A DNA stretch of 31,395 nt from a virus (IMGVR_UViG_3300050010_000331:1-31395), one strand, 5' to 3'. Shown: positions 3,237 to 28,328, numbered from the stretch's first letter. A program made the numbers and translations. The notes: generated by a model from the letters alone, not told the origin.

Positions 3237-3243
3237 CCAGGAT

Positions 3244-3528: not shown

Positions 3529-3557
3529 ATCGCTGAAATTCTAACCCGCTCCTAAAT

Positions 3558-4358: not shown

Positions 4359-4369
4359 AAATTTTATTT

Positions 4370-5293: not shown

Positions 5294-5354
5294 AATCCAA
5301 TTCTAAAAATATCGGTATTAAAAAACTATGAAAACAAATGAAAGGAACAAAAGT

Positions 5355-9300: not shown

Positions 9301-9695
9301 AACAGGTTAGCTGCGGTCTTGGCAGAGGCCTTTACTATGCTGTCATCTTTCGTTACCTCGAAGTTTGTCGCCGGAATAGGAGATCGAGAAACGTCCTGCA
9401 TCAACTGACCTCTAGTCTCCGCATCTGGCAATTGATTTTTTACGTCCGCAATACTAGGCAGTAAAGGTTCTGTCCTTGAGGCTGCTATTCCTGCCGTACC
9501 ACCCGAGGTGTTTAGCTGTGGTTGAGTGATCTTAGCTTGGCTGGCGAGGTACTGTTGTTCGGGGATGTCACTGAATAGGGCTTTTTGTTGTTTTTGATTG
9601 AGATGTCTCTTAATTGCCCCTGCGATGTCATTGTCTGACATCCCGTCAGGAAACTCCACCAATCCCTCACCGACGACATGAATTGTCTGTGGCAT
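6375..9695 (-). CDS. Very large internal virion / DNA-ejection-type protein, 1106 residues
   Basis: Last gene of the late arm. The N-terminus (VEFPDGMSDNDIAGAIKRH) is a short module often found at the start of large phage internal proteins and lytic transglycosylases. Residues about 125-215 hold two Ala/Gly-rich amphipathic or hydrophobic stretches. About 235-335 is a Pro/Thr/Gly/Gln linker, and the rest is mostly helical with charged coiled segments. The region around WELKNAFKIVIGNHAYGVR and DVLHLVSDPRSFTFNRISP may be a large-polyvalent-protein-associated domain; this is uncertain. No transglycosylase Glu motif was identified. Size, position after the smaller internal proteins and composition fit an ejected core protein of a short-tailed phage. 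The start ATG 9695 is three bases after the previous stop. Confidence 0.6.
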   Translation of the reverse strand: MPQTIHVVGEGLVEFPDGMSDNDIAGAIKRHLNQKQQKALFSDIPEQQYLASQAKITQPQLNTSGGTAGIAASRTEPLLPSIADVKNQLPDAETRGQLMQDVSRSPIPATNFEVTKDDSIVKASAKTAANLLSSIPSFAASPLGVASAATGNVFPRIISGLFAADAGKHVVTKANEITDKWNTLTPGQKAAAGIDVTGNTLMALLLGHGAVKGFKNPSLVPPKASGNGFGVPIGETKAGAALDKLVIQPKTTPSESVPPPTIRAQPQANQEPSGSPQTPTEGESKTGVSGNETAPVIGNVKGKTGENQVQESVGPGAAAAGEPGTYRPIREMSDRLATTYDPKAPINEQINAIEKAKGAVQSVKDVVARSAASVKAISDAVWKKYTGLPEYGDEQRSVGKWNYAIQRSDHEAQQFSKQILREVPSKVRREAITNWIQAEGNLDTLKSRAAASKGDLRKGYEIAQNLTSREKEIAEMISRYYDQQLERGIQSGILKDGLDNYITQVWKRENPVTKKLQSDIAYGKLTPNFKYAKKRIFDSFFEGEQAGYQPMKDAGYLVSHYDQSFNRSLAARAFIKDLHDGKASDGRPLVEVVSEGKLIGPKEKPAVLIQPHAKPEELGDYRTIDHPAMRGWAWAAKAPDGTPIFVKGDMLVHPEAFVKLKNRLSTSGFANHPVGRALKTVQSGIKQNLMSLSAFHQVQEGIHALSHKVNPTSLPELDFENPVTRGLVEHGLQLADYRAAADFGEGLSGGGLATKLPYVGTKLHAYNEWLFQDYIPRLKLQMARLALERNRARYPNMNPDKLQEMTASQANAAFGELPYRYWGRNPTLQDALRTFLLAPDFLEARARFVGGALKPFGREQMMALGALAATQYITARIANQVMNKDAHWELKNAFKIVIGNHAYGVRTIPGDVLHLVSDPRSFTFNRISPLSRTGLEAMTGRDDRGLKRDIVEQTKDLVSMPVPISLKSRLGQKWWEYFVNSLGVQEQRYDTQQTIAQKAQDWKAKNGIKSPVDIVYNADEDKYAALKLALRDGDQEAAQAQFNKLKQTTSAAKIHKHFKESLNRPWTGSKAADAKFFSTLDDGGKQEFKNAQEAKQKELSLVMKLK

Positions 9696-9698
9696 AAA

Positions 9699-10442
9699 CT
9701 ATTCAATTTGACCAGTAGCAGGGTTGTACTTCCGAACTTTTCCAGTCGGCGATACGCCACTCGGCGCTTGGTCGGGTAACGGTATATTCAATGGCGTCGT
9801 TGTGTTTGTCAAAGACAGAAAAGCGGGGGTGTTCGTGTCTACCACCCCATTAGCCACATGTGCCGGGTTCAATACCTGGCGAATTTCTTGTCTAGGGGTA
9901 AAGCCAACCGGTTTTTGTTGTTTAGCCTTCTGGAAGATCTCGTACGTTTCGGCGTATTTGTTTGGATCAACATGAATAATGCTACCATCCGGCGAAGCGA
10001 TTGGCACTTTTTCTTTGGGTGGTTCGGGTGAAATGTATAAATCTGCATCGGGCTTTTTAGCTTTCGTTTGATTCAAAACCTGTTGCGCCGAAGCTATGTC
10101 AGGGTACGGCCCAATTGCGTTGCCGCTGCCGTCATTAGTGTAAACGTAAAATAGCTTTTCATTCTTGGTTGCTTGCGATTTCTGCGCTGCTTGTGCTGTT
10201 TGCGCTTTCTGCGCTTCAATATCGAGTAATTTACGGCGTAACCCTTCGTCTGCCTGTTCATGCGCCGTTTTTTCATCCAAGGATTGATTACGATATTGTG
10301 CAACAGCTTGGCTTTGTTGCTGTAATCGTTGTTGCTCCTGCTCAAACCGTTGCTTTTGCAATTTCAACATGCGGTTGCGGTTAATGGTATCATTGAGATT
10401 TCCAAAACTCCGGTCGAGTGCTGCCAAGTCGTTAAATGTCAT
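9699..10442 (-). CDS. Gln-rich coiled-coil virion protein, probably internal
   Basis: 247 residues. Residues about 20-95 form a long Gln/Arg/Lys/Glu helix (KLQKQRFEQEQQRLQQQ...), a likely coiled coil. A compact segment around FYVYTNDGSGNAIGPYPDIASAQQVL follows, then a Pro/Asn-rich tail. No enzymatic motif is seen. It lies between two candidate ejection proteins with 3-bp gaps on both sides, so co-assembly into the virion core is the simplest reading. A minor structural or chaperone role cannot be excluded. Confidence 0.55.
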   Translation of the reverse strand: MTFNDLAALDRSFGNLNDTINRNRMLKLQKQRFEQEQQRLQQQSQAVAQYRNQSLDEKTAHEQADEGLRRKLLDIEAQKAQTAQAAQKSQATKNEKLFYVYTNDGSGNAIGPYPDIASAQQVLNQTKAKKPDADLYISPEPPKEKVPIASPDGSIIHVDPNKYAETYEIFQKAKQQKPVGFTPRQEIRQVLNPAHVANGVVDTNTPAFLSLTNTTTPLNIPLPDQAPSGVSPTGKVRKYNPATGQIE

Positions 10443-10445
10443 AAA

Positions 10446-11594
10446 TTAACCTCCTGCTAGATTTGCAGCTAAATTACCGGCACCCAGCACAGTAGTTAAT
10501 CCGGTTGTCCACGGGTTCGGTTGAGATAGTTGTTGGCCGTATTGTGTCAAACCAGCTTGAGCACCTTGGGTAGCGGCGTTAAGATTTGATTCTGGTAGCG
10601 GTGTTCCACTGACATTCGGAGTAGGGCCAGCCTGCGCGCCGGATAGCTGTGCAAACTGGCTCTGGGGCGTTTTACCAGAAATGAAGCTGGAAAGGTTGGA
10701 TAAATCTTGCTGTTGTTTGCGAAATTCGATGTCGGCGGGAGTATTTCCAGATGCTAGCCATTGTCCACCTGTAGCAGAATTATTCAAAGCTCTTTGCTCA
10801 CCAGCAAATCCTGTCGTTAAAGCCCGTTCAAAATCGGGTGTACCTGTGGTTCCGGTCAACCCACCTGTTTGCGACACTTCTTTGTTAAGCATTGCTTGTT
10901 CTTCCGGGGTTAACCCACTACCGGCTGAAACCTGTTCGCCAACTTGGCGCTGCATTTCATTAGCGACGGGTGAATTTGGGTTGCTGTTAAGTTGTTGTTC
11001 GAGTTGGTTGTACAAATCCGATCTGGCTTGAACGCCCTGGGGATTTGCCTGTTGTTGCTGCTGTAACGCCTGCGCGATAAACTGAGGATCGTATTTATTC
11101 GCATTAGCCAGTTGACCTTGAACTTGTTGCGTCAAAAGCTGTTTCTGAATGTCGGCAGTGGAATTTCCTTGAAAATCGGCTAGGGCTTGATTGGCGGGCA
11201 CAATGTTGCCGTTGCCATCTTTATAGATAGTTCCACCACCTTGCGGGATATTTTTAAGCTGGTTTTGTAGCCGTGTAATTTCATTGACGTAAGACTGTGA
11301 ATCCTTTGCACTGGATTTTTGTTGTTGATTTTGTAATTTGTCAATCTGATCCTGAATAGCCTGCCGTTGGTTGTCACTCGCGGTTTCTTGCGTATACCCC
11401 GGCAAAAGCTGGGTTCCACCAAGTTCGGCTTCTTTTTGTAATCCAAGAATCTCAGGTAATAGAGCCGCCTGCGTGTTCGCCATCTGCTGACTATCCGCCG
11501 TAAGGTTTGGTTGCGATGGAGAAAAGGCACCTGCTGCGCTTGCCGCGCCTAAACCGATGCCTACCGCACTGACTGCGACCCCGATAAAGCTCAT
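10446..11594 (-). CDS. Internal virion protein with hydrophobic N-terminus; paralogue of the 12073-13209 product
   Basis: 382 residues, start ATG 11594 overlapping the upstream stop (ATGA). Residues 1-24 are an Ala/Gly/Val hydrophobic stretch (VAVSAVGIGLGAASAAGAF), as found in ejection proteins that insert in membranes. Residues 70-210 are Gln/Asn-rich coiled coil. The block at about 190-366 matches the product of 12073-13209: LTPEEQ/LTPDQ, TPADIEFR/TPSDIQFR, FISGKTPQSQF/FINGQTPTAQF, LSGAQAG/LSGAQGG. The pair presumably arose by duplication. The composition resembles P22 gp7/gp20-type DNA-transfer proteins, but homology to those is not claimed. Confidence 0.6.
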   Translation of the reverse strand: MSFIGVAVSAVGIGLGAASAAGAFSPSQPNLTADSQQMANTQAALLPEILGLQKEAELGGTQLLPGYTQETASDNQRQAIQDQIDKLQNQQQKSSAKDSQSYVNEITRLQNQLKNIPQGGGTIYKDGNGNIVPANQALADFQGNSTADIQKQLLTQQVQGQLANANKYDPQFIAQALQQQQQANPQGVQARSDLYNQLEQQLNSNPNSPVANEMQRQVGEQVSAGSGLTPEEQAMLNKEVSQTGGLTGTTGTPDFERALTTGFAGEQRALNNSATGGQWLASGNTPADIEFRKQQQDLSNLSSFISGKTPQSQFAQLSGAQAGPTPNVSGTPLPESNLNAATQGAQAGLTQYGQQLSQPNPWTTGLTTVLGAGNLAANLAGG

Positions 11595-12076
11595 TTTTTT
11601 TCCTTTAACATATTAATAATTTCGGATTCTATTTCAACATCCATTTGATCTTCAGATGGTGTGTAAATAATATCCTTTTCAATCTCAGCCACATCCGTTT
11701 TGTTGCCAACGTAATGAACGGTTGTCCAATCCACATCCGTATGGTGCATGATGATTCTTCGCGCTCCCGCATTCGTGAATCCCCAAAAAGGAGCTTCAAT
11801 ATGCTTGATTCCCATTCTTTCAACCCACACAGAAACCTGGCCTTTGGAAATAAAAAATGGAAAATCGGCCTTGAATATCTTGGAGATTACCACCGTGCCA
11901 GCCGGAACGTGAACCGTCCGAAGGTAAAATCCGTCCTTAAAACTATGATCGAGTGGGCATTCAATCTGCTTTTTTTTGGCCCAATCGCGTTGCAATTCAT
12001 CCACGGCTTTTTGCGCGGGCGTTTCCATGGCTTTACGGGCAAAGTCTTCACCGGTTAATGTTTGTAATTGGTTCAT
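11591..12076 (-). CDS. Phage cupin-fold protein
   Basis: 161 residues. A helical N-terminus (residues 1-35) leads into a small beta-barrel pattern: VHVPAGTVVISKIFKADFPFFISKGQVSVWVE, then APFWGFTNAGARRIIMHHTDVDWTTVHY. This matches a cupin found repeatedly in podovirus structural operons, with His and Gly positions of cupin motifs 1 and 2, although the canonical H-x-H of motif 1 is reduced here (K-A-D-F). A metal site is therefore doubtful and the fold may be purely structural. It is joined by ATGA overlaps to the two paralogous internal proteins on both sides, suggesting that it works with them. Confidence 0.65.
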   Translation of the reverse strand: MNQLQTLTGEDFARKAMETPAQKAVDELQRDWAKKKQIECPLDHSFKDGFYLRTVHVPAGTVVISKIFKADFPFFISKGQVSVWVERMGIKHIEAPFWGFTNAGARRIIMHHTDVDWTTVHYVGNKTDVAEIEKDIIYTPSEDQMDVEIESEIINMLKEKK

Positions 12077-13209: not shown

Positions 13210-13643
13210 AGCGTAAATCGGTGCAACACTTTCATACTGATTTTAACCAGTTTTCCGCGCCTCAGTGTGTAAACCGGAGTCGTTAATAGTATAGGCCATT
13301 CCGCTAATGACGCATTGATTATTTGTGAAACAAAATGTCGGCTTCCAATGACATCACCCACAAATAAAGCATCGCCTTTCCTGACGGTATTCCACTCAAA
13401 CTGCGGCCTGTGCTGTTCGGCTTTCATTTCGATATGCTCAATATAATCCATCCAATAAAAAACCACAGCTTTAACGTTATTATTGTCCCATGCCACGGCA
13501 ATTTTGCCAGTCAATACACAAAAAGCCACAAACCGAAACATTTTATCACGCGTGCTGGCCCAAGCCATGATCTGGCCACGGTTTACCAGACAAAAATCAG
13601 TAATCTGATTGATGGTGTTTTGTAGTTTTAACGTGACTTGCAT
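13206..13643 (-). CDS. Conserved virion-operon protein, possibly GNAT-like
   Basis: 145 residues, starting at a TAATG junction with the gene before it and ending in an ATGA overlap with the gene after it. Alternating strands and helices (AFCVLTGKIAVAWDNNNVKAVVFYW, then GDALFVGDVIGSRHFVSQIINASLAEWP, then a final R-R-G-K strand) recall small acyltransferase (GNAT-like) folds found beside tail-adaptor genes of podoviruses. The acetyl-CoA loop (R/Q-x-x-G-x-G/A) is not evident, so catalysis is unproven. It may instead be a structural or assembly protein. It lies between tail and internal-protein genes. Confidence 0.45.
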   Translation of the reverse strand: MQVTLKLQNTINQITDFCLVNRGQIMAWASTRDKMFRFVAFCVLTGKIAVAWDNNNVKAVVFYWMDYIEHIEMKAEQHRPQFEWNTVRKGDALFVGDVIGSRHFVSQIINASLAEWPILLTTPVYTLRRGKLVKISMKVLHRFTL

Positions 13644-15337
13644 TAGGCGCTAGGGTCTGGGGCAAACTTAATGTAACCACAAACTAAAATCTCGCGCACG
13701 TCCATAAAGCCAGAGTTGGCTTGAATCGAAACGTACATTTCAAAACAATATGGCAATTCTAAAAGGCTTTGATAAGCAACCTGCGGCTTGGAGCTGGCGA
13801 GCGTAAAAGGCAAAATCACCGGCAACGTGGTTTGACCAACACCCAAATCGGCAGAAGCCGAATCGCTCATTGCTGTGTCAAAGTAATAATACAGATTAAC
13901 GTTCGCGGTGCCCTGGTTAAACCTCACCTGAGCACTACGCATCTTCTTTTGAAGATCGTAATTTCCAAAAATGAATGAGCGGGTGTCAATCCTTTGAAAA
14001 ATAGCTACGCCATTGTCCAAATACGTTCCCACCAAATATTGTAAACTGGTGGAATCCTTCCATACCGTAACAGTGCCATCACTGTTGCCGATGATAAGTT
14101 GTTGACCAGCTTGACTAAAACCCCCGTTAAAACTGGTTCCCGTTGCAAAGCGGGCTGCTACGGCGCAAGTTGGCGTCCAACCTGACCAAATCATCCACTG
14201 CCCCAGACGCCCGTCCCATACCAAAGCATAATTATTCACCGTGGAATTATCCAAGGGCACAAAGAAAATAGCCCAACGGCGATACTTGACCGCCTGAATT
14301 ATTGACCCGTAAGACCAATTGATTCGATCAATGTAATTTTGAATCGGCTCACTGAGCGGCGCGGTAAGCTGGTATTGACCGGCTGCCGCCTGCATTCGCT
14401 GTAAACTTTGAACGCCATCCTGCGACATGAAAAGCAGGTCATTTTGATACAAGCAATAAGCCGCCTTGCCAACGCAACCAATACCTGTGCCAACCTGATC
14501 CCCTTGCGGATTAGCCGACAACTGGGCAAACATTGCCGCTATGCCTGACGGTGTGCCGGACGTTGAATAATTCTGCGGATTGATCGTTACCACCCAGACC
14601 GAGTTTTGTTTCAAAACCGCAAGTTGATAAACCGGCACCGTTGAAGCCGTGGACTGAATTGCAGCCAGACCAACAATCGGTTCTCCGTCACCATTACCTA
14701 CTCTAAACGATTGGCTAACTGACCACTGCCCCGATTTTACTGCAAGGTAATTCGAGAAAAAAAGCGTGTCAGGCGGATAGACGACACTATTTTGAATCAT
14801 CGCATTCCCCGAGGCGACAAACATTCCTGCAATCTGGGAAAGACAATTGACGCCCGCCGGCGCGTTGGTCGCTGAATTGGTCGCGCCACAACTGATAAAC
14901 GTAGTTCCATTCCAGAATGCCATTGGGTTAACACCATCACTAGCGAGAATCACCGTACCATAGGTTGAATCAACTCCCTGAACCATAACCACCTGTTGAG
15001 ATGCCAAAAGCGTCTGCGGCCAGCTCGCAATAGCAACTGACCACACTGAACCATTCCAAGTATAGAATTGGCCACCCTGAGCCATAATTAGCTCTTGAAA
15101 CGGGACACCCTGATTAGTCATGCTGTCGTAGAAGCCAATCCCTTGAACCGGCCCGCTAGGATTAAAAACTGTCGTCGCCAGCAAATCCGCCCCAGGTCTG
15201 GTAACCGCCCTGCCATTATCCAGCACAATGAAATTTTGAATTAACTGGCTCTGATTGCGCTTCAAATCTGCGGCGTAATGGAATGAATCCATTCCGTCGG
15301 AGAAATTTGGCTGACGATCATAGCTTTTTGGTATCAT
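13643..15337 (-). CDS. Beta-propeller-like tail protein (nozzle / DNA-stabilisation type)
   Basis: 564 residues. The N-terminus (NQSQLIQNFIVLDNGRAVTRPGADLL) matches the opening of T7 gp12-like tail tube and P22 gp10-like stabilisation proteins, where R-x-N/Q...N-x...R-P-G is usual. The body consists of repeated beta blades (FYTWNGSVWSVAIASW; MAFWNGTTFISCG; YALVWDGRLGQWMIWSG), as in the propeller of such tail proteins. Length falls between P22 gp10 and T7 gp12. The next gene upstream is the probable adaptor, giving the common adaptor-then-nozzle order. No enzymatic motif is seen. Confidence 0.7.
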   Translation of the reverse strand: MIPKSYDRQPNFSDGMDSFHYAADLKRNQSQLIQNFIVLDNGRAVTRPGADLLATTVFNPSGPVQGIGFYDSMTNQGVPFQELIMAQGGQFYTWNGSVWSVAIASWPQTLLASQQVVMVQGVDSTYGTVILASDGVNPMAFWNGTTFISCGATNSATNAPAGVNCLSQIAGMFVASGNAMIQNSVVYPPDTLFFSNYLAVKSGQWSVSQSFRVGNGDGEPIVGLAAIQSTASTVPVYQLAVLKQNSVWVVTINPQNYSTSGTPSGIAAMFAQLSANPQGDQVGTGIGCVGKAAYCLYQNDLLFMSQDGVQSLQRMQAAAGQYQLTAPLSEPIQNYIDRINWSYGSIIQAVKYRRWAIFFVPLDNSTVNNYALVWDGRLGQWMIWSGWTPTCAVAARFATGTSFNGGFSQAGQQLIIGNSDGTVTVWKDSTSLQYLVGTYLDNGVAIFQRIDTRSFIFGNYDLQKKMRSAQVRFNQGTANVNLYYYFDTAMSDSASADLGVGQTTLPVILPFTLASSKPQVAYQSLLELPYCFEMYVSIQANSGFMDVREILVCGYIKFAPDPSA

Positions 15338-16703: not shown

Positions 16704-18374
16704 TCATTGCGGACTGATTAGCACATTAACCAGCGGAAAAAGGTCGAGGGAATTGTTTGCGTTAAACGTTTCGATCCGCACAAAATTTGTTGTAATTAGA
16801 TTATCAGGCGATATGTCCAAGCTACCCGCATGGGTGCCATTGTTCCGAACTGAGCCAGTCACGTAGTAAAATGGTGTCGGTGATGGGCTGCGAAAATAAA
16901 CATCGTAAACAGACGATCTCACGGAAGTTGCAGAGCTAACCTGAATTGCATCAGCATTAAACCCCGTAAAATTAGTCATCCAAAAAATATTGCCAGGACT
17001 CAACGCCGCGCAAACACTGCCAAGGATTGGATTGGTGCGTGCCACTGCTGCCGCATAATTCGTAAACAACTGAAAGCCGGTCATCGGGCTGGAATTGGTG
17101 AAAAATGCATAGAGAAGTTGGTTGCTGGTTGTCACCGGTGAAGTGGCAAAGCTTGTAGTCCACCCCTTAAGAGAAACCGCCGTTGGCATTGTCCAGTTAA
17201 CGGCATCTGCCAAGTTTGTTATAATTCCCGTAGTTGTCCCCATATTAGTAAACGTCTCAGTCACAGGGTTGCCGTTAAATTGAACCCGTCCTTGAGTATA
17301 GTTCGGCAACGCGTTTACATTTGTAAAATACTGGTACAACGCGCCAAGCGTCACGATTGTGTTAGTTTGCTGTAACGCCGATTGAACGGGGATAATGTCC
17401 GTGTTCGTCAGAGTCGGAGCATTTGTGTTGTACATGAAAATTCCCGTAATAGGAAAATTGGTTTGAAACCCCCACAAATTGGTAAAACCGTAAGTATTCG
17501 TTCCGTAAATTGTCCACGGAGCAAAGTCAAATTGCCATGACGATCCCAGTAAAAGGTTTGTTCCTAATGTGGAAGAAATCCCCTGCAAAAAATTTGTAAG
17601 CGTGATTTGATGGGGAACTCCATTCGTACCCCACATTAAAAGCTCTGGTTGATTATTAGTACTGTACGGCACAAAAACACCGTAAGGCGGTAAAGAAAAA
17701 ACATTCGATCCTGAACTATTGGTTAAAGCATACGGAAAAGCGGCAACGTTTGCATTACTTGAAACAACGTTCACCAGATTGGAAAACGTGATGGACTGCA
17801 AATTGGTTCCTGCCGCACTGTAGAACTGAAATAAATCAGAGTTCGTATAATTTGGATAACCTTGAGGCAATAAAGTAAAGCTTTGCGGGTTTGCTAAAAT
17901 AGCCGAAACCGCGGTGTAATAAAGCAGTGTTCCACCACGCGACAACATAACAAAATCTCCGGCTGTATATGATCCCGAACCGACACCGACAATAAAAGTC
18001 GGTGAAGGGGTTGCGCCGTTCACAAGGTTGTTTAAGTCGCTCGCATGAACGATTTGACCGTCAACAAAATTTTCCCCGCTGTTAAAAAATGTTCCCGCCG
18101 TGCTGGAATGAACCAGCAGAAAAAACACCAACAAACAACTAAACGCCTTGGGATTTCCTTTTGACCACGTTTTTTTAATGAAGTCGGTGGACATGCCAAA
18201 TAGCTTGCTGATGTCCCGGGCGCCAATTGGGTGTTTCTGCTTCCTTTCGCCGCGCTCAATTTCCCTCAATGCCCTTGGCACCTTCGCGTAAACAGAATCA
18301 GGATTGACCGATGGTTCACCGCAACGCACGCCAGGCGCACGTCCACTCAAAATGATTTCTTTTAAACCGTTCAT
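16704..18374 (-). CDS. Fibre-like beta protein with chimeric N-terminus and membrane/signal segment
   Basis: 556 residues from ATG 18374 (ATGA overlap). Residues 1-75 are basic and include GARDISKLFGMSTDFIKKTW, which looks like a helix-turn-helix. Residues 78-94 (FSCLLVFFLLVHSSTAG) are a hydrophobic segment followed by a plausible signal-peptidase site. A fibre-type opening follows (GENFVDGQIVHASDLNNLVNG), then about 430 residues of Thr/Asn/Phe-rich beta sequence. Translation from the internal ATG 18194 (Met61) would give a conventional signal peptide, so the first 60 codons might not be used. The overlap supports the long form; the signal supports the short one. Likely tail fibre or cell-surface protein. 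Confidence 0.6.
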   Translation of the reverse strand: MNGLKEIILSGRAPGVRCGEPSVNPDSVYAKVPRALREIERGERKQKHPIGARDISKLFGMSTDFIKKTWSKGNPKAFSCLLVFFLLVHSSTAGTFFNSGENFVDGQIVHASDLNNLVNGATPSPTFIVGVGSGSYTAGDFVMLSRGGTLLYYTAVSAILANPQSFTLLPQGYPNYTNSDLFQFYSAAGTNLQSITFSNLVNVVSSNANVAAFPYALTNSSGSNVFSLPPYGVFVPYSTNNQPELLMWGTNGVPHQITLTNFLQGISSTLGTNLLLGSSWQFDFAPWTIYGTNTYGFTNLWGFQTNFPITGIFMYNTNAPTLTNTDIIPVQSALQQTNTIVTLGALYQYFTNVNALPNYTQGRVQFNGNPVTETFTNMGTTTGIITNLADAVNWTMPTAVSLKGWTTSFATSPVTTSNQLLYAFFTNSSPMTGFQLFTNYAAAVARTNPILGSVCAALSPGNIFWMTNFTGFNADAIQVSSATSVRSSVYDVYFRSPSPTPFYYVTGSVRNNGTHAGSLDISPDNLITTNFVRIETFNANNSLDLFPLVNVLISPQ

Positions 18375-18874
18375 GATTTTAAAGGTTCACCCAACTTAAC
18401 CAAAGGAGACCAGGCAATGTGTCCAGGATCGACCTGATAACTTGGCGCATTCAACAACACAATTCCAGCCGCCTTAACGCAATCCAAGTCGTACTGACTG
18501 CAAATCAAGTGCGCGTGCGGGCTGCCGTCGTCAACCGCTTGGCCCAGTAATCCACGAAAGACGGGATTAAACCGGAAAAGATTTGCGATTGAATACGGCT
18601 CAAGTGCCGCCTCACGTTTAGCGCATTCAGCCAAGATCAAATCGGATTGTTCCTGAGTCAGTCCAACAATGTCAAAAACGTCAATGCCCGCCAGTTCAGA
18701 ACTGGCAAGCACCCGTCTGCGGACGTGAGGCGCGTAAGCCTCGGAAATCTCATTCTTAGACCGATCCGTTACGATTGCCGCATGCGTGTACTCGGTATCC
18801 GTTTCCTCGGTGATTAACCAAGACAACGGGTCGACGGCGTGCTTTCGGAATAAAACAATTTGAATGAGTGACAT
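18371..18874 (-). CDS. Permuted papain-like (YiiX/NlpC-P60 type) cysteine hydrolase
   Basis: 167 residues from ATG 18874; an in-frame TTG at 18883 would add three residues and overlap the preceding stop. His31 in YTHAAIV, Glu45 in NEISEAY and Cys125 in LICSQYDLDCVKAAG followed by DPGHIAWSPL give the His...Glu...Cys order of circularly permuted NlpC/P60 enzymes such as YiiX. These hydrolyse amide or ester bonds in cell-wall peptides or lipids. There is no signal peptide, so access to the wall would need a holin. It lies near two small membrane proteins, making it a candidate endolysin; a virion-associated hydrolase is the alternative. Confidence 0.68.
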   Translation of the reverse strand: MSLIQIVLFRKHAVDPLSWLITEETDTEYTHAAIVTDRSKNEISEAYAPHVRRRVLASSELAGIDVFDIVGLTQEQSDLILAECAKREAALEPYSIANLFRFNPVFRGLLGQAVDDGSPHAHLICSQYDLDCVKAAGIVLLNAPSYQVDPGHIAWSPLVKLGEPLKS

Positions 18875-18879
18875 AAAAC

Positions 18880-19389
18880 TCAATAGGTGAACCCAGTTTC
18901 AGCGTAAAACGTTGGGTTGGTATTCTGTTTGCCTTTAAAATAAAAAGGCAACGAAGCGCCAATGCGGAAGAACGTATTTGGCGTAGGTTTCTTGGACAAA
19001 AACAGAGTCGGCTCAACAACCTCAGTATTTCTGTTCCAGTCGTACCCGGCTCTAATATCGGCGTCAACCTTCAGATCAAGATGTTCAATTAGCGCATAGC
19101 CACCCTGAACAACTGCGCCATTTATCGGCGAACCAACGCCGGAAAATTGAAGACCTGCACCGATGTTGAACCGTTCAAAATCATATTGTCCGTCCAGGGT
19201 GGAAGCTGCGTTTACTCCGGTAACCTGCTTGTAGCCGGTGGCAATTTCCAAGCTGTTACTTACCCAGGAATAGTTTGTATTGAATGACGTGAAATAACTT
19301 TCAGCCGTTCCAATAAACGTTTGGTTTGTTTGCGCCCGGGCCGTAAAGCATAGGGCGGTGAGTGCGATCAGTGCGAATATTTTTTTCAT
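18880..19389 (-). CDS. Outer-membrane beta-barrel protein with signal peptide
   Basis: 169 residues. A clear Sec signal peptide, MKKIFALIALTALCFTARAQ, cuts after Ala19 or Gln20. The mature part has alternating strand patterns (FNIGAGLQFSGVG, VQGGYALIEHLDLKVDADIRAGYDW, FFRIGASLPFYFKG) and ends FYAETGFTY, an aromatic C-terminus recognised by the BAM complex. With about 150 mature residues an eight-strand barrel would fit. Phage-encoded barrels can change the host surface (superinfection exclusion), block receptors or help lysis. The family was not identified by name. It is placed in a late operon, between small membrane proteins and the hydrolase. Confidence 0.72.
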   Translation of the reverse strand: MKKIFALIALTALCFTARAQTNQTFIGTAESYFTSFNTNYSWVSNSLEIATGYKQVTGVNAASTLDGQYDFERFNIGAGLQFSGVGSPINGAVVQGGYALIEHLDLKVDADIRAGYDWNRNTEVVEPTLFLSKKPTPNTFFRIGASLPFYFKGKQNTNPTFYAETGFTY

Positions 19390-19392
19390 AAT

Positions 19393-19599
19393 TTACTTTG
19401 TTTCTTTGGTTGTTGGTTGTTCATTTGGTGACGACTGCAAAGCGTGATAAACGTTTGTTGCCGCTACGCCGATACCGATACCGATTGACGCATATTTATT
19501 TGCCCCGCTCGCCGCTGCCGCGAAGGCTGCCGCTGAGCCGGTGCCGATCACCAGGCTAGCCAAAATTATCCAAGACTTAACTTGAGGGGAAAAATTCAT
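19393..19599 (-). CDS. Small membrane protein, holin candidate, 68 residues
   Basis: From ATG 19599. TTG 19605 is also in frame, and its TTGA would overlap the preceding stop. A hydrophobic segment (SWIILASLVIGTGSAAAFAAAAS) and a second Gly/Ile/Ala segment (YASIGIGIGVAATNVYHAL) are separated by a short Lys-containing turn. The hydrophilic tail ends in Lys/Glu. Two transmembrane helices with a charged tail, small size and proximity to a hydrolase gene fit a class II holin. No sequence family was recognised, so this rests on topology and context. Confidence 0.55.
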   Translation of the reverse strand: MNFSPQVKSWIILASLVIGTGSAAAFAAAASGANKYASIGIGIGVAATNVYHALQSSPNEQPTTKETK

Positions 19600-19601
19600 A
19601 A

Positions 19602-19844
19602 TCAATTGTCCTTCTCAACAATACGCGTTGGCTCGGGCGTCACATTTTTGGTATGCTCCTTTTGCCATTCGTCCATGGCCGACATGTGAATCTCAAGCTG
19701 GGTAACTTTTTCCGTCAGCTTGTCAATCTTGTCCGGGCTTTCCCATTGATGGACTTGGCTAATGATTACAAACCCAACCACGGGGGCCAATAATGCCAAT
19801 GTTTGGAGTTTGGTTGGATTAAATCCTTTGGTCGAATTTGGCAT
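19602..19844 (-). CDS. Single-pass membrane protein with coiled coil, 80 residues
   Basis: From ATG 19844, with TTG 19850 as alternative start; the junction (TTG, ATT, ATG) is the same as for the following gene. A hydrophobic segment at about residues 15-34 (LQTLALLAPVVGFVIISQVH) is followed by a charged heptad-like helix, KIDKLTEKVTQLEIHMSAMDEW, and a polar tail. This N-terminal anchor plus coiled coil is the layout of inner-membrane spanins and of some holin accessories. No lipoprotein partner with a lipobox was found nearby, so a spanin role is uncertain. Confidence 0.5.
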   Translation of the reverse strand: MPNSTKGFNPTKLQTLALLAPVVGFVIISQVHQWESPDKIDKLTEKVTQLEIHMSAMDEWQKEHTKNVTPEPTRIVEKDN

Positions 19845-19846
19845 AA

Positions 19847-20317
19847 TCAAGGTAATGTTATGATGTTTGTTATTGTCGGAATCGTTGGATGCAACCCGGA
19901 CGGCGGAAGGAGTGGCGCATAATTCGTCACGGTCTCAACGAAACTATTTGTATCAAACAATATAGGGGCAGCATAAGCCGACTGCGTTCCATTCGTTCCA
20001 TTGGCTGTCGCTGTAATGTAGGCTGGATTTGATGGCAATTGGCTTGCCGAAAAATTGATATTGCTTTGACTTGAAGAACACTGACCAAGCCAAATCCAGT
20101 TATTTTTCAACAGCGTAGTCGGTGACTGACCCCATGCGTTGTAGTTCTGTATTTGAGGTTGTGGTGATATTGACGGAGTAAAGGATAGCGTTACCGTCTG
20201 TCCCATCACCCCCGTCACGCTCATCCCCAGCAAAATAAACAGTAGCAGACAGAGTAAAATCCACGCTACCACCTTCAGGCTGGAAGTTTCGTAATGATTA
20301 AATTGCTCGTTTTTCAT
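19847..20317 (-). CDS. Membrane-anchored or secreted beta protein, 156 residues
   Basis: Start ATG 20317 forms ATGA with the preceding stop; a longer frame to 20371 is less likely. Residues 14-38 are strongly hydrophobic (VVAWILLCLLLFILLGMSV), then GVMGQ, compatible with a signal anchor or a cleaved signal peptide. The rest is beta-rich: VTLSFTPSISP...YNAWGQ and NPAYITATANGTNGTQS loosely recall a fibronectin-III-like domain in which strands begin V-T-L and end Y-x-A-x-A. The tail repeats Asn/Thr/Pro. Function unknown. It belongs to a run of genes with export signals. Confidence 0.5.
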   Translation of the reverse strand: MKNEQFNHYETSSLKVVAWILLCLLLFILLGMSVTGVMGQTVTLSFTPSISPQPQIQNYNAWGQSPTTLLKNNWIWLGQCSSSQSNINFSASQLPSNPAYITATANGTNGTQSAYAAPILFDTNSFVETVTNYAPLLPPSGLHPTIPTITNIITLP

Positions 20318-20805
20318 GGCCCAATTTTTACGACGGGATTTGTTACCGTGGCGCTCACCACGAACAGCCAATTATTGCTGGGAACATATTTAAAATACGT
20401 CGCCGGTGGCGGTGCAAAATTGGCGGCTACATAGTTTGTGACTTGGTTGTACAAACCATTCGTATCAATCGTCAAACTCGTATTCGCCGCGTGCATGTTC
20501 CCGCTGGTATCCGCAATGGCTGACGGTGTATTCGTATTGCACGCCCACCAGAACGAGCCGCTAGGTGAAATAATATATTGATTCGTCTTGTTCTGATTCG
20601 GGTAGTACGTCCCATCCCCCAGCATGATTGGATTATGTGTGCCCGCCCCGCTGTAGAGTCCACCATTGCCGCCCGGATAGGCGAAAATGAAGGACGTTGA
20701 GGAAACGTTCGTAGCTGACACCGTGCCCGAAAACACAGCGGTCGGGGCAGCAAACACGGTCATGGCCAAGAGAGTTGCCATCAAAGTTAAGAGTATTTTA
20801 TTCAT
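20314..20805 (-). CDS. Secreted beta-rich protein with signal peptide, 163 residues
   Basis: ATG 20805 is chosen because it lies four bases past the previous stop and yields a typical signal peptide (MNKILLTLMATLLAMTVFAA, cleavage near Ala19/Ala20-Pro). The longer frame to 20853 overlaps the previous gene. The mature region contains VFSGTVSATNVSSTSFIF, a Gly/Tyr-rich loop and a C-terminal V-rich part, without catalytic motif. It resembles the style of the neighbouring fibre-like proteins (Thr/Asn/Ser-rich strands). It may be a surface or fibre accessory. Confidence 0.5.
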   Translation of the reverse strand: MNKILLTLMATLLAMTVFAAPTAVFSGTVSATNVSSTSFIFAYPGGNGGLYSGAGTHNPIMLGDGTYYPNQNKTNQYIISPSGSFWWACNTNTPSAIADTSGNMHAANTSLTIDTNGLYNQVTNYVAANFAPPPATYFKYVPSNNWLFVVSATVTNPVVKIGP

Positions 20806-20809
20806 AATT

Positions 20810-21934
20810 TTAAAACGTTGGATAAGCAGCCAGCGAAATATTTGACGGCGCATAAACAGTCATTCCGTTACTGGTTGAGAGGGTGGCCATTTGGGCAATA
20901 ATATTACTACGTACAAGAGGGTCAGCATACCACGGCGAAAGCTTCTGACCTCCACCCCCAGCAAAATTGTGCCCCACCAGAACTGCGTTTGTTCCTACCA
21001 CCATGATCCAAGGACAGCCAGAATCACCGCCGGTGAGGTTGTGGAACATTCCAATTGGCAACCAATATGAGCTTGAGCTAACAACCAGGCTCACCGAGTT
21101 GTCTGTAAGATAGCTTTCATTATAGGCAAAATATTGAACGACATTAGGTGTCAGAAATTGCCCTTGATCTCCGGTTACAATTGGAAAGAACGTGCTGTTC
21201 GTAATGCTGGGAAAGTAGTTTCCTACATTGGTTGCCAGCATCGGCAAAGGAATCACCGTTGCGGGTAGTGGTGAATTAAGCAAACACACCTCGATGTCGG
21301 CCCCCGGATTAAAATTCGTGCTGATCGCGTAAACCGTCCGCTGCACAAGATTGCCATCAGTCCCGAGCCAGACCAATGTCTGGCCCACAGAATACGGCGC
21401 ATGCTGACAAACCAGCACATGAAGTGGCGATATTGCGCAACCGCATTCTTGCCCAGTCAATGAGGAATTACCCACCAACCCTTCACCCACGATCCACGCT
21501 GAGAGCTGGTACAAATTATTCAGCCAGAATGCCGGATTAGCGGTAAAGTTCGTTGTGGTATAGTTTGCTACTGACAATCTAGAACAATTGACGGAAACAT
21601 TCGTGGCCGCTTGCAGATTCGTTACCGAATTGAAAGCCAAACTTGTTGGCGCAAAGGTTGCAAAGCTGGGAGAATAGCTTCCCGGCACCGTCACCGCGCT
21701 CTGATAACCCCAACCCAACCCTGTGTCCACCGTATAATTTCCAGTATTCGTAATGATTGGATTCTGATTCCCGTTAACATCATAATAGTTATAACCGACG
21801 ATAGACATTGAATGCCCACTCCCGAGCACAACATCGCGATTCGTAGTCGATCCTGAGGTCGGCACTGAGTTTGAAATCAGCGTCAACGTAATATTCGTCA
21901 GCCCGGCAAAAATTTGTATACTGTTCACAATCAC
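20810..21934 (-). CDS. Trypsin-like serine protease domain protein in the fibre/surface block
   Basis: 374 residues, GTG start in a GTGA overlap. Residues 1-100 are beta-rich and fibre-like. Residues about 105-345 carry a chymotrypsin-type triad in order: His178 (SPLHVLVCQHAP), Asp213 (PGADIEVCLL) and Ser305 (GGDSGCPWI), where the family consensus is GDSGGP. A VLVGHNFAGG strand follows the serine, as expected after the nucleophile. Six cysteines (117, 164, 166, 176, 217, 307) could form disulfides outside the cell. No signal peptide of its own is visible. It could be a virion surface protease acting on host surface proteins or on neighbouring fibre proteins; activity is inferred from motifs only. 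Confidence 0.68.
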   Translation of the reverse strand: MIVNSIQIFAGLTNITLTLISNSVPTSGSTTNRDVVLGSGHSMSIVGYNYYDVNGNQNPIITNTGNYTVDTGLGWGYQSAVTVPGSYSPSFATFAPTSLAFNSVTNLQAATNVSVNCSRLSVANYTTTNFTANPAFWLNNLYQLSAWIVGEGLVGNSSLTGQECGCAISPLHVLVCQHAPYSVGQTLVWLGTDGNLVQRTVYAISTNFNPGADIEVCLLNSPLPATVIPLPMLATNVGNYFPSITNSTFFPIVTGDQGQFLTPNVVQYFAYNESYLTDNSVSLVVSSSSYWLPIGMFHNLTGGDSGCPWIMVVGTNAVLVGHNFAGGGGQKLSPWYADPLVRSNIIAQMATLSTSNGMTVYAPSNISLAAYPTF

Positions 21935-22869
21935 TGCAAAGGCCCTCCATTAAACGAACTCGGGGCAATGACATTCGTGTCCGTGTACAAAGTGCCCGTT
22001 AACGTAATTCCGGCTTGAAATGCAGGGTCGAGGTTGTTGCAAAGCATGCGGTCGAAATGCAGTGTAATCCCCGAATCATTACCAAAAATGCTTGCCGTAT
22101 TTGAAGTGACCATTGTAGGAGCCTGTAAAATTGAGCCAGAAGCAAAATTGGCAGCATTGGTAAAAGTCATGGATTTGTTCGCGTAAATCTCAAACCCAGG
22201 GTAACCGCCCCCGCCAAAATGGGGATTTTGAATATAACAATTGTCGCAAAAAATAATATAATCAGACACCAATAATGAAGCCCCGTTTCCGCCTTCACCA
22301 ATCGAATTTGCCGTCTGACAATGTACCGTTGCGAATGAACCATTTGCTTGTGCATCACCAGCATAACCATTGAAAGTTGCACAAGTGATGGACACGTTAA
22401 ATGGAGCGACACCACCTTGCAATGTAATGTTCCCCGTCCCGCTAATTGTATTTGTTCCGTTGTTGGCGTAGACAGTTACATTCGCCCCGCTCGCCAGAAA
22501 CCATCCATAAACCAGATTTGTCACCGAGTCCGAATAGGTTCCCGGGTTCACCGCAATCGTCCAACCCACCGGCGTGTTCCCATTCGTCTGCGCGTGATTA
22601 ATCGTCGCCCAGGGAAAGTTAATCGACCCGTTGTTAGCATCACTACCGTGCAATGCGTCCACATACTTGACGTTGACATTAGCCCAGTTGGTTCCAGTTG
22701 CAAAAAAAGCTGCATTTATATTTGTTATATTCGCCCCATTCCCTGTAATCACACCATTAACTAAAACATTTCCAATCGTACCAAACGACCCCTGACCAGA
22801 CCCGAACTGAGCACGCGCTGTCACGCACATTAAAAATGTGACGATGAATAAGCCGATGATATTTTTCAT
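21931..22869 (-). CDS. Secreted right-handed beta-helix protein (tailspike-like)
   Basis: 312 residues. Signal peptide MKNIIGLFIVTFLMCVTARA with likely cleavage near ARA-Q, the same end as the outer-membrane barrel gene. Residues about 66-105 (VKYVDALHGSDANNGS followed by PWATINHAQ) match the DUF1565/pectate-lyase-like start, where Y-V-D-x-x-x-G-x-D and P-x-x-T-I are typical. The following 200 residues show repeating turns (VTVYANNGTNTISGTG, ITLQGG, FEIYANKSMTF) as in a parallel beta-helix. Such domains bind or cleave polysaccharide in tailspikes; catalytic residues cannot be named here. A Sec signal on a tailspike-like protein is unusual. Confidence 0.62.
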   Translation of the reverse strand: MKNIIGLFIVTFLMCVTARAQFGSGQGSFGTIGNVLVNGVITGNGANITNINAAFFATGTNWANVNVKYVDALHGSDANNGSINFPWATINHAQTNGNTPVGWTIAVNPGTYSDSVTNLVYGWFLASGANVTVYANNGTNTISGTGNITLQGGVAPFNVSITCATFNGYAGDAQANGSFATVHCQTANSIGEGGNGASLLVSDYIIFCDNCYIQNPHFGGGGYPGFEIYANKSMTFTNAANFASGSILQAPTMVTSNTASIFGNDSGITLHFDRMLCNNLDPAFQAGITLTGTLYTDTNVIAPSSFNGGPLQ

Positions 22870-22870
22870 G

Positions 22871-23476
22871 TTAACCTTTTACAACAATCCAAATCGGGCC
22901 AGACGATCCGGCAGCGGTATACGTGAGCGCCGTACTTGACCATGCACAGAAAATGCCGTCCATGTCGACACTGCGGCCTAATGTGCCACCGAGGCCAGGT
23001 TGAACCGGGAATGAAAACTTGGGAACTGTTGCGCCAGCCGGTGCTACCGCAATTGGAGCGGTAAACGAAGGTGCGGGAGCCGTTCCATTTCCAGCGACCG
23101 TCAACCAAGTGCCCTCCCAAGGAACTTGCGCAGCGTTCGTATAAAGCGGCGTGGCCCCAGACAAGATTTTCCAATAAAGATTAGTCGTGTCCCAAACCAA
23201 ACTGTAGTTCGTGTCTGCCGACTGCCATTGCTGCCGTCCACCTGAAAGCGTTGATTGCAAATTAAATGCCTGATTAACGCCCGCCGTGCCTGCGCCACTG
23301 GCTGTGATCTGCGTATTCTGAATTTCAAACACCTGCATGTACAGCGTACCGTTGGTGTTGTTCAGGCAAAGAACATCCAAAAGCTTTTCAGGACGAACGA
23401 TTGGGCCTGCGTTCTCAGTGCCGAACCGGCTCGCAACCGATGCGGCTGTCCCGATTGTGTGTGTCGCATGGTTCAT
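22871..23476 (-). CDS. Probable structural (decoration/tail) protein, 201 residues
   Basis: Start ATG 23476 is preceded at nine bases by GGAGG, one of the few convincing ribosome-binding sites in the late arm. The first 110 residues are mixed, with short strands (TLYMQVFEIQNT; YSLVWDTTNLYWKIL). The last 60 are smooth beta (FTAPIAVAPAGATVPKF, then GPIWIVVKG at the end). There is no signal peptide or enzyme motif. Position right after the capsid genes and before the beta-helix gene suggests a capsid-surface or base-of-spike protein. I do not recognise a family. Confidence 0.5.
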   Translation of the reverse strand: MNHATHTIGTAASVASRFGTENAGPIVRPEKLLDVLCLNNTNGTLYMQVFEIQNTQITASGAGTAGVNQAFNLQSTLSGGRQQWQSADTNYSLVWDTTNLYWKILSGATPLYTNAAQVPWEGTWLTVAGNGTAPAPSFTAPIAVAPAGATVPKFSFPVQPGLGGTLGRSVDMDGIFCAWSSTALTYTAAGSSGPIWIVVKG

Positions 23477-23840: not shown

Positions 23841-23877
23841 TAAAAGAAAGCTGGCGGCGGGATAGACCACCGCCAGC
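23841..23877 (-). terminator. Rho-independent terminator after the major capsid gene
   Basis: On the minus strand GCTGGCGG (23877-23870) pairs perfectly with CCGCCAGC (23857-23850) around a 12-nt loop, which can extend by two more GG/CC pairs. The stem is followed at once by TTTCTTTTA (23849-23841). It lies directly after the capsid stop (23885) and before the next ATG (23833). Incomplete termination would give much more capsid transcript than downstream transcript. Confidence 0.8.
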
Positions 23878-23884
23878 AAGGTTA

Positions 23885-25015
23885 TCATTGGAACGAGGAT
23901 TGAACACGGAGCGCACAGACATGCGGCACATCCGTAGGATCGCTCGTAATTTTCAGGATGGAGCCATAGTAGGCTTTCCACGATCCAATCACGTATTGAT
24001 TGTAGGGATCAGTTTTATCCGGTTGATCAAGCACCACAATCTTTGGAGCAGCCGGAGAAGTGCCGGCCCGTTTGTCGCTGATTGTGATGGTGCCATACGG
24101 ATCGTCACCAACGTACATGCAAGTATAGATGTTGCCCGCACTGTTGTACGTGCCGTAACCGCCTGCTGCTTCCTGCCAGGGGTTGGTGGTTTCAATGAAC
24201 GCGCCGCCGTCCAGTTCAAACTCTTCCCATTTGTACAGTTTAGCGTTGTCGCGCTGTGTCATAGCCGCAACCAAAGTGCCGTCTTGGCGAATATCGAACA
24301 TGACTTGTGGGGCCACACAAACCGGGAACACCATACCGTCCTTAGGCTTAACGTCATTCGCCTTAAGCTGCGTTAAAGCGCGAAGATGTTCCAGCCGGGT
24401 AAACTTGCCATTGGCGCGGGTTAAACCGGCCAAAGTTCCAAAGTCCGTTGGGCTAACACCAGTGTTAACCACGCCCGCAAACCGTTCAAAATAGTTTGCC
24501 GAGGTGATACCGTAGGTGTTGTTTGAATTGTACAACGTGGTTTGAGCTGCGCCTAAGCCAAGAGCTTTGGCCAACGCTCCCGTTGTGGCATTACCCATGA
24601 TGGAGTTCAAGATGATCGTGTCGTAATCCAACGCGGCATCTTGTCCGATGGTTTTCATGTAGATACGCAAGGTATCCAGCACATCCGTTGCTTCCGCAAT
24701 GTCGGAGATTTGGAAGTCGTCACCCCGTTGATTCAGATAACAATCGAGTGACCCGACTGATACTTGATCTTTACGCAGGTTAAGAGAGCCTTCCGTGAGG
24801 TTTTGAGGACCAACCGTAGCTGTGGCACGTTGGGCTTTTCGGGCGCGGAAAAACCGCACTGAAAGCGTGCCTTTGGCCGGGGCCGTCTTTTTCTCTGAAA
24901 ATTGCTCCATACGGAGCTGAAATTCAAGAGTCTGGAGCATTTCACGCTCCAAGTATGCGACTCGCCGTTGAGCGAAATCGGCTGGTGAAGTAGTTGTTGC
25001 TTGTCCTGTAGCCAT
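23885..25015 (-). CDS. Major capsid protein (HK97-fold, N4-gp56-like)
   Basis: 376 residues from ATG 25015; an in-frame TTG at 25030 is possible but less likely. The pattern fits N4-gp56-type coat proteins: an N-terminal helix with EMLQTLEFQLRMEQF, then KGTLSVRFFRARK, a long spine-like helix (VLDTLRIYMKTIGQDAALDYDTII), FTRLEHLRALTQLKAN, VAPQVMFDIRQDG and a C-terminal strand region with YVIGSWKAYYGS. It follows the scaffold-like gene and is followed by a strong terminator, as expected for the most abundant virion protein. No protease gene is visible nearby, and the N-terminus shows no delta-domain. Confidence 0.85.
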   Translation of the reverse strand: MATGQATTTSPADFAQRRVAYLEREMLQTLEFQLRMEQFSEKKTAPAKGTLSVRFFRARKAQRATATVGPQNLTEGSLNLRKDQVSVGSLDCYLNQRGDDFQISDIAEATDVLDTLRIYMKTIGQDAALDYDTIILNSIMGNATTGALAKALGLGAAQTTLYNSNNTYGITSANYFERFAGVVNTGVSPTDFGTLAGLTRANGKFTRLEHLRALTQLKANDVKPKDGMVFPVCVAPQVMFDIRQDGTLVAAMTQRDNAKLYKWEEFELDGGAFIETTNPWQEAAGGYGTYNSAGNIYTCMYVGDDPYGTITISDKRAGTSPAAPKIVVLDQPDKTDPYNQYVIGSWKAYYGSILKITSDPTDVPHVCALRVQSSFQ

Positions 25016-27038: not shown

Positions 27039-28328
27039 TCATTCTAACACAATTGCGGGTTCAGGAACAGGTTTATCAGTAAAGTTTATTCCTTCTTCTT
27101 GTTCGGAATTTATTTCTTTAATCACAGACGAAAGGTCTTCAACGCTCGCGATCACGCCATCGGGCAGCATGTCGGCCAGTTCATTCAGCTTCAACGCTAC
27201 TTCTTCCAGCGTGTCGCCGGTCGCCACCAGCCAGCCAATCTCATCCTCAATGATGCCAGGCTCTGGCGGAAACCACGGCTGCCCATTACACCAACAACAA
27301 CCTGATATTTGTAAATGTTCCTTTATCTCTGACACCATCTCCATTGTATTCCAGCTATTCACTTCGCCATGTATCTTGGTCATGACCTCGCCGGTGAATT
27401 TGCAATTGTATTCCGGTTCTACCAATTGACCCTGTGCGCCGTAAAAAATGATGTCATCCAGATTGTCCAGGGCCAGCAGTTGCGATCCAGTTGAGGGCAA
27501 TCCGCCGCGACAAGTGGGGTCGATAAAATAGTCAGCATCTTCTGCCACCCTGACTTCCATACTCCACTGACAACGATATTTCGCCTCCATTAATTTTTCG
27601 CTAAACGCTTCCATGATCGGCAGCAATTCTTGCGGCATATCCTCTTTTCTTGTCACCGCTGATAGATACGCCTCATCCTTAGCCTCTATCCCGTGCAACA
27701 TGGTTGAAGGGAATTGACCGTCTATACAGAAAGTGTCTGCGCCAATCTCAAGCTTGGTGTCAATCTTCGGAAAGCATAAAAATGTTATCACATTCTGCAA
27801 CCCACCAAACCGAACCGCCCATTGATCCAGCAAGCCTGAGTCTGAATCCATGTTCCGAAAATGCTTGGTTTCAAATGACCCGCGCCATTTACTCATTTTT
27901 ATCCAAATATCCTGTTTGTCTTTTAGAAAAACCCGAAGATTAACCAACCCTTTGATTGGAAAACATTCCGGCACTGACAATCCCAGCTCTTCCAATGTTT
28001 GCAAAAAGTATTGTCTGTCTATCTCCAGCTTCATTCCATCCGCCGATCCCCACACATTTTTGCCAATATCCCGCAAATGTTTTTGCAAACCGTAGTGGTA
28101 AATGTCTGGAAAAACAAAGCAATCCACTTCATTAAGCACGTCAAACAAATCAGGCACGCATTCAATGTCCGGGAAACCGTCCCCCTGTACACCTTCTTCA
28201 GCACGCGGATAAGCCTTTTGCCAGTCCAGTTTGTGGTACAGCACGCGATGTCCGTACTTGGCCAGAGTGAGGGCAATCGGCAGAAATATTCCGTGGTCAG
28301 CAACTAGGTATGTGCGGGTTTTAGTCAC
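27039..28328 (-). CDS. ATP-grasp superfamily protein in the head module
   Basis: 429 residues, GTG start in a GTGA overlap with the HExxE gene. Residues 1-95 resemble the pre-ATP-grasp domain of phosphoribosylamine-glycine ligase-like enzymes (TYLVADHGIFLPIALTLAKYGHRVL, then VDCFVFPDIYH). Next come G-S-A-D-G-M-K-L-E-I-D-R (about 94-105), a strand with Lys144 (DIWIKMSKWRG), Glu194 (KLEIGADTF) and SMEVRV...YFIDPTCR (Glu248, Asp260, Arg264). These are the positions where ATP-grasp enzymes bind ATP and metal ions. The reaction would be ATP-dependent ligation of a carboxylate to an amine or similar nucleophile; the substrate is unknown. A catalytic function within capsid genes is unusual, though not unknown in phages. 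Confidence 0.72.
   Translation of the reverse strand: MTKTRTYLVADHGIFLPIALTLAKYGHRVLYHKLDWQKAYPRAEEGVQGDGFPDIECVPDLFDVLNEVDCFVFPDIYHYGLQKHLRDIGKNVWGSADGMKLEIDRQYFLQTLEELGLSVPECFPIKGLVNLRVFLKDKQDIWIKMSKWRGSFETKHFRNMDSDSGLLDQWAVRFGGLQNVITFLCFPKIDTKLEIGADTFCIDGQFPSTMLHGIEAKDEAYLSAVTRKEDMPQELLPIMEAFSEKLMEAKYRCQWSMEVRVAEDADYFIDPTCRGGLPSTGSQLLALDNLDDIIFYGAQGQLVEPEYNCKFTGEVMTKIHGEVNSWNTMEMVSEIKEHLQISGCCWCNGQPWFPPEPGIIEDEIGWLVATGDTLEEVALKLNELADMLPDGVIASVEDLSSVIKEINSEQEEGINFTDKPVPEPAIVLE

Follow-up and report, generated by a model that had tools for sequence, protein, structure and literature searches.

Why should a phage carry, between the head and tail genes of its virion operon, a series of proteins that appear to be addressed to the outside of the cytoplasm? 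The question is raised by a gene cluster in a viral genome fragment, the preliminary description of which reported Sec-type signal peptides or signal anchors on four proteins and an internal signal in a fifth. It suggested that these proteins might form a surface-modifying system made during infection (receptor masking, exclusion or the coating of released particles) rather than ordinary tail parts. Here, we analyze the export signals, the domain organization and the relatives of this cluster, and we weigh several explanations for its presence among virion genes.

Results

Genomic Context

The window, that is, the whole stretch of DNA that was analyzed, is one virus record, a linear fragment of 31,395 bases. 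Its right part is taken up by late genes of podovirus type, all in one minus-strand operon, in which a terminase fragment, the portal, a scaffold-like protein and the major capsid protein (MCP) are followed by the cluster and then by tail-hub and ejection-type genes. The virion-operon context is set by the MCP (23885-25006, minus strand; phrog_1357, E 1.6e-19). The head-side neighbor of the cluster is a small beta-protein without a signal peptide (22871-23476, minus strand) that is conserved in the relatives L003 and L004. On its other flank lies a tail-hub/stabilization-type protein (13643-15337, minus strand), 25% identical over 97% of length to a protein annotated as "phage stabilization protein" in Podoviridae sp. 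MW202524.1, a phage that the portal of the window also matches. With its HK97-type MCP, portal and stabilization/tail-hub protein, this uncultivated virus is a podovirus (Caudoviricetes).

All of the ORFs of the cluster are present on the minus strand, and among them are two small membrane genes (19393-19599 and 19602-19844) that the preliminary description had passed over. The cluster is co-directional and overlapping with the late genes and shows no excess of promoter-like sites; repeats within the region are short pairs at chance level. No tRNA was found in the window, and Shine-Dalgarno-like sequences precede few of its genes (5/33). Directly 3' of the MCP gene there is a strong terminator-like hairpin (23850-23877, minus strand; 11 pairs, 9 of them G-C), which would reduce expression of the exported cluster relative to that of the capsid. 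Elsewhere in the window, a 429-aa protein encoded between portal and scaffold (27039-28328, minus strand) is conserved (51-59%) in L004 and in L008; it has, by eye only, the look of an ATP-grasp-type enzyme and found no match in Pfam, PHROGs, the PDB or the phage collection. A RecT/PDDEXK recombination pair in the early region is followed by two neighboring plus-strand genes, one for a phrog_2045 member (Gp37/Gp68-like; 4370-5293) and one for a DHH phosphoesterase (5328-6374).

Relatives of the virus are the handful that emerged from MCP and portal searches of IMG/VR; single-sequence searches of viral contigs with the proteins 20810, 18880 and 16704 (named here, as below, by the lower coordinate of their genes) found nothing. 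The podovirus L004 is syntenic with the window through the tail hub, and its MCP and portal are 77% and 67% identical to those of the window. Between its MCP and tail hub are encoded two exported proteins (8037-8516 and 8504-10399), a couple of small membrane proteins, a barrel-like exported protein, a candidate spanin-like pair, a TIG-domain protein and a homologue of 16704. The gene plan of the cluster, exported proteins included, is retained in this diverged relative. The candidate pair consists of two overlapping small ORFs (L004:11326-11662) which on inspection, and from weak PHROG matches, resemble an Rz/Rz1-type spanin pair; one of them has a lipoprotein-like ILTVTGC start.

Predicted Export Signals

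Signals were scored with a simple heuristic of our own, not with SignalP; it combines a hydrophobic 11-mer, a preceding positive charge and a signal peptidase I (SPI)-type site, and whole-protein shuffles pass it falsely at a rate of 1.8%. By this heuristic, three proteins begin with canonical SPI signals in which a positive n-region, a hydrophobic core and small residues at -3 and -1 are all found: 18880-19389 (169 aa; site MKKIFALIALTALCFTARA↓Q, ending TARA↓Q), 20314-20805 (163 aa, T/N-rich; site MNKILLTLMATLLAMTVFA↓A, ending VFA↓A) and 21931-22869 (312 aa; site MKNIIGLFIVTFLMCVTARA↓Q). The same heuristic reads the very hydrophobic N-terminus of 19847-20317 (156 aa, with a T/N-rich mature part) as a signal anchor, or else as a signal peptide with a possible site VMG↓Q, and finds in 16704-18374 an internal signal-like segment at residues 78-93 with a possible site STA↓G. 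The four N-terminal signals and the internal fifth are thus borne out at the level of this heuristic, and T-A-R-A-Q does occur twice, as had been claimed.

A strong hydrophobic segment is present in 7 of the 9 genes of the interval versus 2 of 24 elsewhere (Fisher p = 2.6e-4). The lysis-type ones aside, the cluster proteins are unusually rich in N+T (18-23%), an extracellular-type composition that would count in favor of a role at the envelope. Their charged residues amount to 4-9%, except in 18880 (15%), against about 20-35% in head proteins.

Glutamine occupies +1 in 8 of 10 predicted cleavage sites (window, L004 and MW202510.1); at 5% Q the chance of this is about 1.6e-9, an optimistic figure since some sites were chosen by eye. 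Q at +1 is the pattern reported for SPI substrates of Bacteroidetes, in a paper that makes no mention of Verrucomicrobia (PMC5837995). It has also been seen in exported proteins of P. gingivalis prophages, at predicted sites (PMC10367356). By contrast, 0 of the 52 proteins of the verrucomicrobial phage P8625 carry a signal peptide (PMC4642752). The Q rule and the scarcity of Shine-Dalgarno-like sequences would fit a Bacteroidota-like or other Shine-Dalgarno-poor diderm host, and we assign none.

The Tagged Protein 21931

Immediately behind its predicted signal peptide, 21931 carries a tag, QFGSGQGSFGTIG, which is followed by a T/N-rich beta-helix-like domain. In the form Q-[FY]-GSGQGS-[FY]-GT the tag is common to 21931 and two exported L004 proteins, and in all three it starts exactly at the predicted mature N-terminus (+1). 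Most codons differ between the two L004 copies; all of the changes are synonymous and no residue differs, whereas the signal peptides of the same two proteins agree at no more than 4 of 18 positions. What follows the tag varies as well: the domain is beta-helix-like in 21931 and, in L004, either putatively LamG-like with a putative SGNH hydrolase or of unknown type. The SGNH-like blocks (GSS, CPRND and DSPPTH, candidates for the S...N...D-x-x-H series) of L004:8504-10399 were recognized by eye only, and comparison of this protein with Pfam, NCBIfam and the PDB yielded no match. When 2.9 million viral contigs were scanned with a degenerate DNA pattern for the tag, hits came from this phage group only.

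Because the signal peptides have diverged around the tag and the domains behind it differ, the tag is, on the evidence of these alignments, under selection on the exported, cleaved form of the proteins. That conservation begins at +1 is the strongest evidence for signal-peptide cleavage. The combination of a constant mature N-terminus with exchangeable domains further implies that the tagged proteins would dock to a common partner.

The beta-helix that had been attributed to the exported proteins gains indirect support from a homologue of 21931 in Podoviridae sp. ct3Et533 (MW202510.1, L011). This protein, annotated as "rhamnogalacturonan lyase," is 50% identical to 21931 over 68 aa and 33% overall, and has below-cut-off matches to DUF1565 (E 9e-4) and to a Pel9A-like beta-helix (E 0.015). 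The window protein itself has a weak match, also below the cut-off, to the LIC10774/LIC10365 surface-protein family (E 1.6e-8); its first 170 aa are identical in the metagenome contig L002, and a beta-helix alignment search gained no further phage.

The Serine Protease and Its Distant Relatives

A serine protease had been placed amid the exported proteins, and it is indeed there: a trypsin-like protein with a GDSG motif (20810-21934, minus strand), whose gene overlaps the stop of 21931. Its triad is assigned by conservation, since H178, D213 and S305 are invariant between it and a 28% identical homologue in MW202510.1 (L011:21864-23099). It found no Pfam, PHROG or PDB match, Trypsin_2 (PF13365) was not found in the window, and the heuristic detects no clear signal peptide.

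In MW202510.1 the homologues of 21931 and 20810 are adjacent, in the same order and with a 4-base overlap, and the next gene after the protease, in the slot of 20314, encodes an exported FN3 protein (site MKHLLIILLFAVCAHA↓Q). Gene order, overlaps, the homologous beta-helix and protease and the exported protein that follows are thus alike in the two phages. Unlike in the window, the trio comes last among the tail genes, and only its third member has a signal peptide. The signal-less beta-helix of MW202510.1 means that the module exists in a form in which this protein would be a normal cytoplasmic spike, and suggests that proteins of the 21931 and 20810 type may have had an ancestral spike role in the virion. 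In the distant relative MW202524.1 (L010), a fibre-like gene of low charge and without a signal stands between MCP and tail hub, along with small membrane proteins; genes annotated as glycosyltransferases and methyltransferases are also inserted there (3147-11978).

The predicted signals, Q at +1, the tag and the gene plan of L004 together lend good support to the view that several proteins encoded in this virion operon are meant for export. The contrast with ordinary tail parts drawn in the preliminary description is too sharp in view of the signal-less fibre-like gene of MW202524.1 and the signal-less beta-helix and protease homologues of MW202510.1.

Lysis-Type and Barrel-Like Proteins

The small membrane protein of 19393-19599 (68 aa) is holin-like, with a weak match to the phrog_1299 holin (E 0.0015). 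That of 19602-19844 (80 aa) has one N-terminal transmembrane segment and a probable coiled coil, is presumably also lysis-type and found no significant family match.

The product of 18880 ends in ...FTY and has a positional homologue in L004 (10781-11329; 25% identity), which likewise carries a signal peptide and an aromatic C-terminus (F, in place of the Y of 18880). It is possibly an outer-membrane barrel. The barrel claimed in the preliminary description is nonetheless not established, for the excess of amphipathic strands over shuffles is z = 1.3 (1.5 in the L004 homologue). AlphaFold2, given 18880 and this single homologue, returned a pLDDT of 28; members of the Lom/Ail/OmpX family were not found by Pfam or PHROG matching, and the E value of an NCBIfam match to omptin, 0.035, falls short of significance. 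The adjacent 18371-18874 (minus strand) encodes a putative permuted papain-like (YiiX-type) protein, recognized by inspection from its H...C order, and possibly a lysis or envelope enzyme; its match to phrog_1128 (E 5e-8) supplies a family name only.

The Fibre-Like Protein 16704

The largest of the proteins, 16704-18374 (556 aa, minus strand), is fibre-like and T/N-rich. It comprises a conserved, cytoplasmic-type N-domain (residues 1-72), the signal-like segment (about 73-94) and a low-charge C-terminal part. Its full-length homologue in L004 (12221-13939; 39% identity) has the same layout, with 64% identity in the N-domain, 32% in the hydrophobic segment and 36% over residues 126-556. With 32% in the segment against 64% in the N-domain, the hydrophobic stretch has preserved its character through sequence drift, in the manner of signals and anchors.

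Residues 1-72 are the best conserved part of the gene and include an HTH-like stretch at about residues 50-71; AlphaFold2 gave the N-domain a pLDDT of 49. A ToxR-like membrane regulator, with a DNA-binding HTH in the N-domain, was considered and rejected, the match, to the repeats of a single PDB chain at about 7 bits each, being too weak. We also rejected the idea that residues 1-60 are an artefact and that translation starts at the conserved M61 with an ordinary signal peptide, as no Shine-Dalgarno-like sequence precedes M61 in either phage. This, together with its conservation, indicates that the N-domain is probably translated; dual starts, one with the full N-domain and one at M61, may conceivably be used.

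Discussion

Modification of the cell surface by exported proteins, through masking, exclusion or coating, is the leading reading of this locus and a plausible one. In the form that we tentatively favor, and to which we would grant a little less than an even chance, which is also the simplest, the cluster would be a late envelope module, situated between head and tail genes, that combines lysis proteins with Sec-exported, tagged and probably carbohydrate-active surface proteins altering or shielding the infected cell. Starting from the signals and their conservation, the tag and the operon context, the following course can be proposed. Late in infection, the signal peptides would route 21931, 20314, 18880 and probably 19847 across the inner membrane, where SPI would cleave them, mostly exposing an N-terminal glutamine. 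The constant tag would then dock the 21931-type proteins to one envelope partner, and the exchangeable domain behind it (beta-helix-like here; LamG-like with an SGNH-type hydrolase in L004) could act on surface carbohydrate. The capsule or receptor of the dying cell would thereby be altered or covered, and re-adsorption of progeny and superinfection might be reduced and release facilitated.

Several features are consistent with such an envelope module. Lysis-type membrane genes are interleaved with the predicted exported genes, and L004 keeps this plan; 21931 resembles, below the cut-off, a bacterial surface-protein family, as well as a lyase-annotated beta-helix. Tailed phages encode a number of envelope proteins, among them Bor, Cor and T5 Llp in addition to lambda Lom. 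Lom, a beta-barrel, is made with a signal peptide, and its gene lies between those of spike and fibre (PMC12309495), so that exported phage proteins, even a barrel between tail genes, are known already, and a possibly barrel-like exported late gene such as 18880 would have a precedent. Like the proteins of the window, these envelope proteins are exported by a signal peptide, small and encoded near tail or late genes. In the window, by contrast, several exported proteins occur together, lysis genes are interleaved with them, the post-cleavage tag is shared and the domains are exchangeable and probably active on carbohydrate; no sequence homology to the known examples was found. Against an envelope module stand the signal-less homologues of 21931 and 20810 in MW202510.1 and the signal-less protease lying between exported genes.

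The same facts bring the spike back into consideration: the exported proteins may be spikes that have been diverted to the envelope, or spikes that join the virions no earlier than lysis. A broader formulation, which we regard as somewhat unlikely, holds that they are Sec-exported spike-type proteins, trimmed to a common docking tag, and either presented on the surface of the infected cell or added to virions from outside; such a modular, tag-based extracytoplasmic spike system would include the fibre 16704, with its internal signal behind a conserved cytoplasmic domain. The narrower version, in which virion spikes are completed outside the cytoplasm, is the main rival to an envelope module, though unlikely. 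Here the exported tagged proteins would wait in the periplasm and join progeny tails at lysis, the constant tag being the virion-docking end and the variable part a receptor-binding or depolymerase domain. A constant N-terminus before an exchangeable C-terminal domain is indeed the arrangement of tail spikes, the genes belong to the virion operon and neighbor the tail hub, and both the signal-less beta-helix of MW202510.1 and the fibre-like gene in the same slot of MW202524.1 agree with a virion role. Yet we know of no tailed phage that completes its tail from outside at lysis, dilution would make attachment at that moment inefficient, and the barrel-like 18880 and the anchor 19847 are a poor fit to a tail part. 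Podovirus beta-helix tailspikes and depolymerases similarly join a beta-helix-like domain, encoded in the tail region, to a variable C-terminal domain behind a constant N-terminus; they have no signal peptide and are assembled in the cytoplasm, whereas 21931 has a clear one that is predicted to be cleaved.

It is improbable that the hydrophobic N-termini are not export signals in practice but serve ordinary virion proteins for membrane activity or packing, like the hydrophobic N-termini of ejection proteins. A hydrophobic N-terminus of small residues does occur in 10446-11594 of the same genome, the segment of 16704 is internal, and capsid proteins of P. gingivalis phages have been flagged with signal peptides that are probably prohead-protease sites (PMC10367356). 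Against this reading stand the canonical succession of n-, h- and c-regions, the AxA-type sites, Q at +1, and a conservation that sets in right behind the site, next to a hydrophobic part free to diverge. Accessory (moron) cargo for a lysogen, i.e., lysogenic-conversion surface genes that happen to occupy a late operon, has equally little likelihood: genes for exported phage proteins are a typical class of conversion gene, the PHROG matched by 18371 is classed with the morons and glycosyltransferase-annotated genes share the slot in MW202524.1, but the cluster is co-directional and overlapping with the late genes, lacks a promoter-like excess and is kept in the diverged L004, no integrase was recognized among the ORFs of the window, and alignment-based patterns for the MCP and the 16704 N-domain found no match in 84,980 bacterial and archaeal species genomes.

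Prophage proteins of P. gingivalis that follow the Q rule are comparable to those of the window in that they are phage-encoded, have no known function and would begin with glutamine after the predicted cleavage; neither a tag nor a link to spike-like domains was noticed in their description (PMC10367356). Exchangeable exported domains that carry a common tag after cleavage, combined with a fibre whose internal signal is conserved, did not come up in the literature consulted and are apparently new. The accepted site of adhesin assembly in tailed phages is the cytoplasm, and Sec-exported beta-helix and hydrolase-like proteins would depart from that scheme. If the proposal is true, the locus would provide these phages with a way to strip or mask the host surface before lysis, or to finish their virions outside the cytoplasm.
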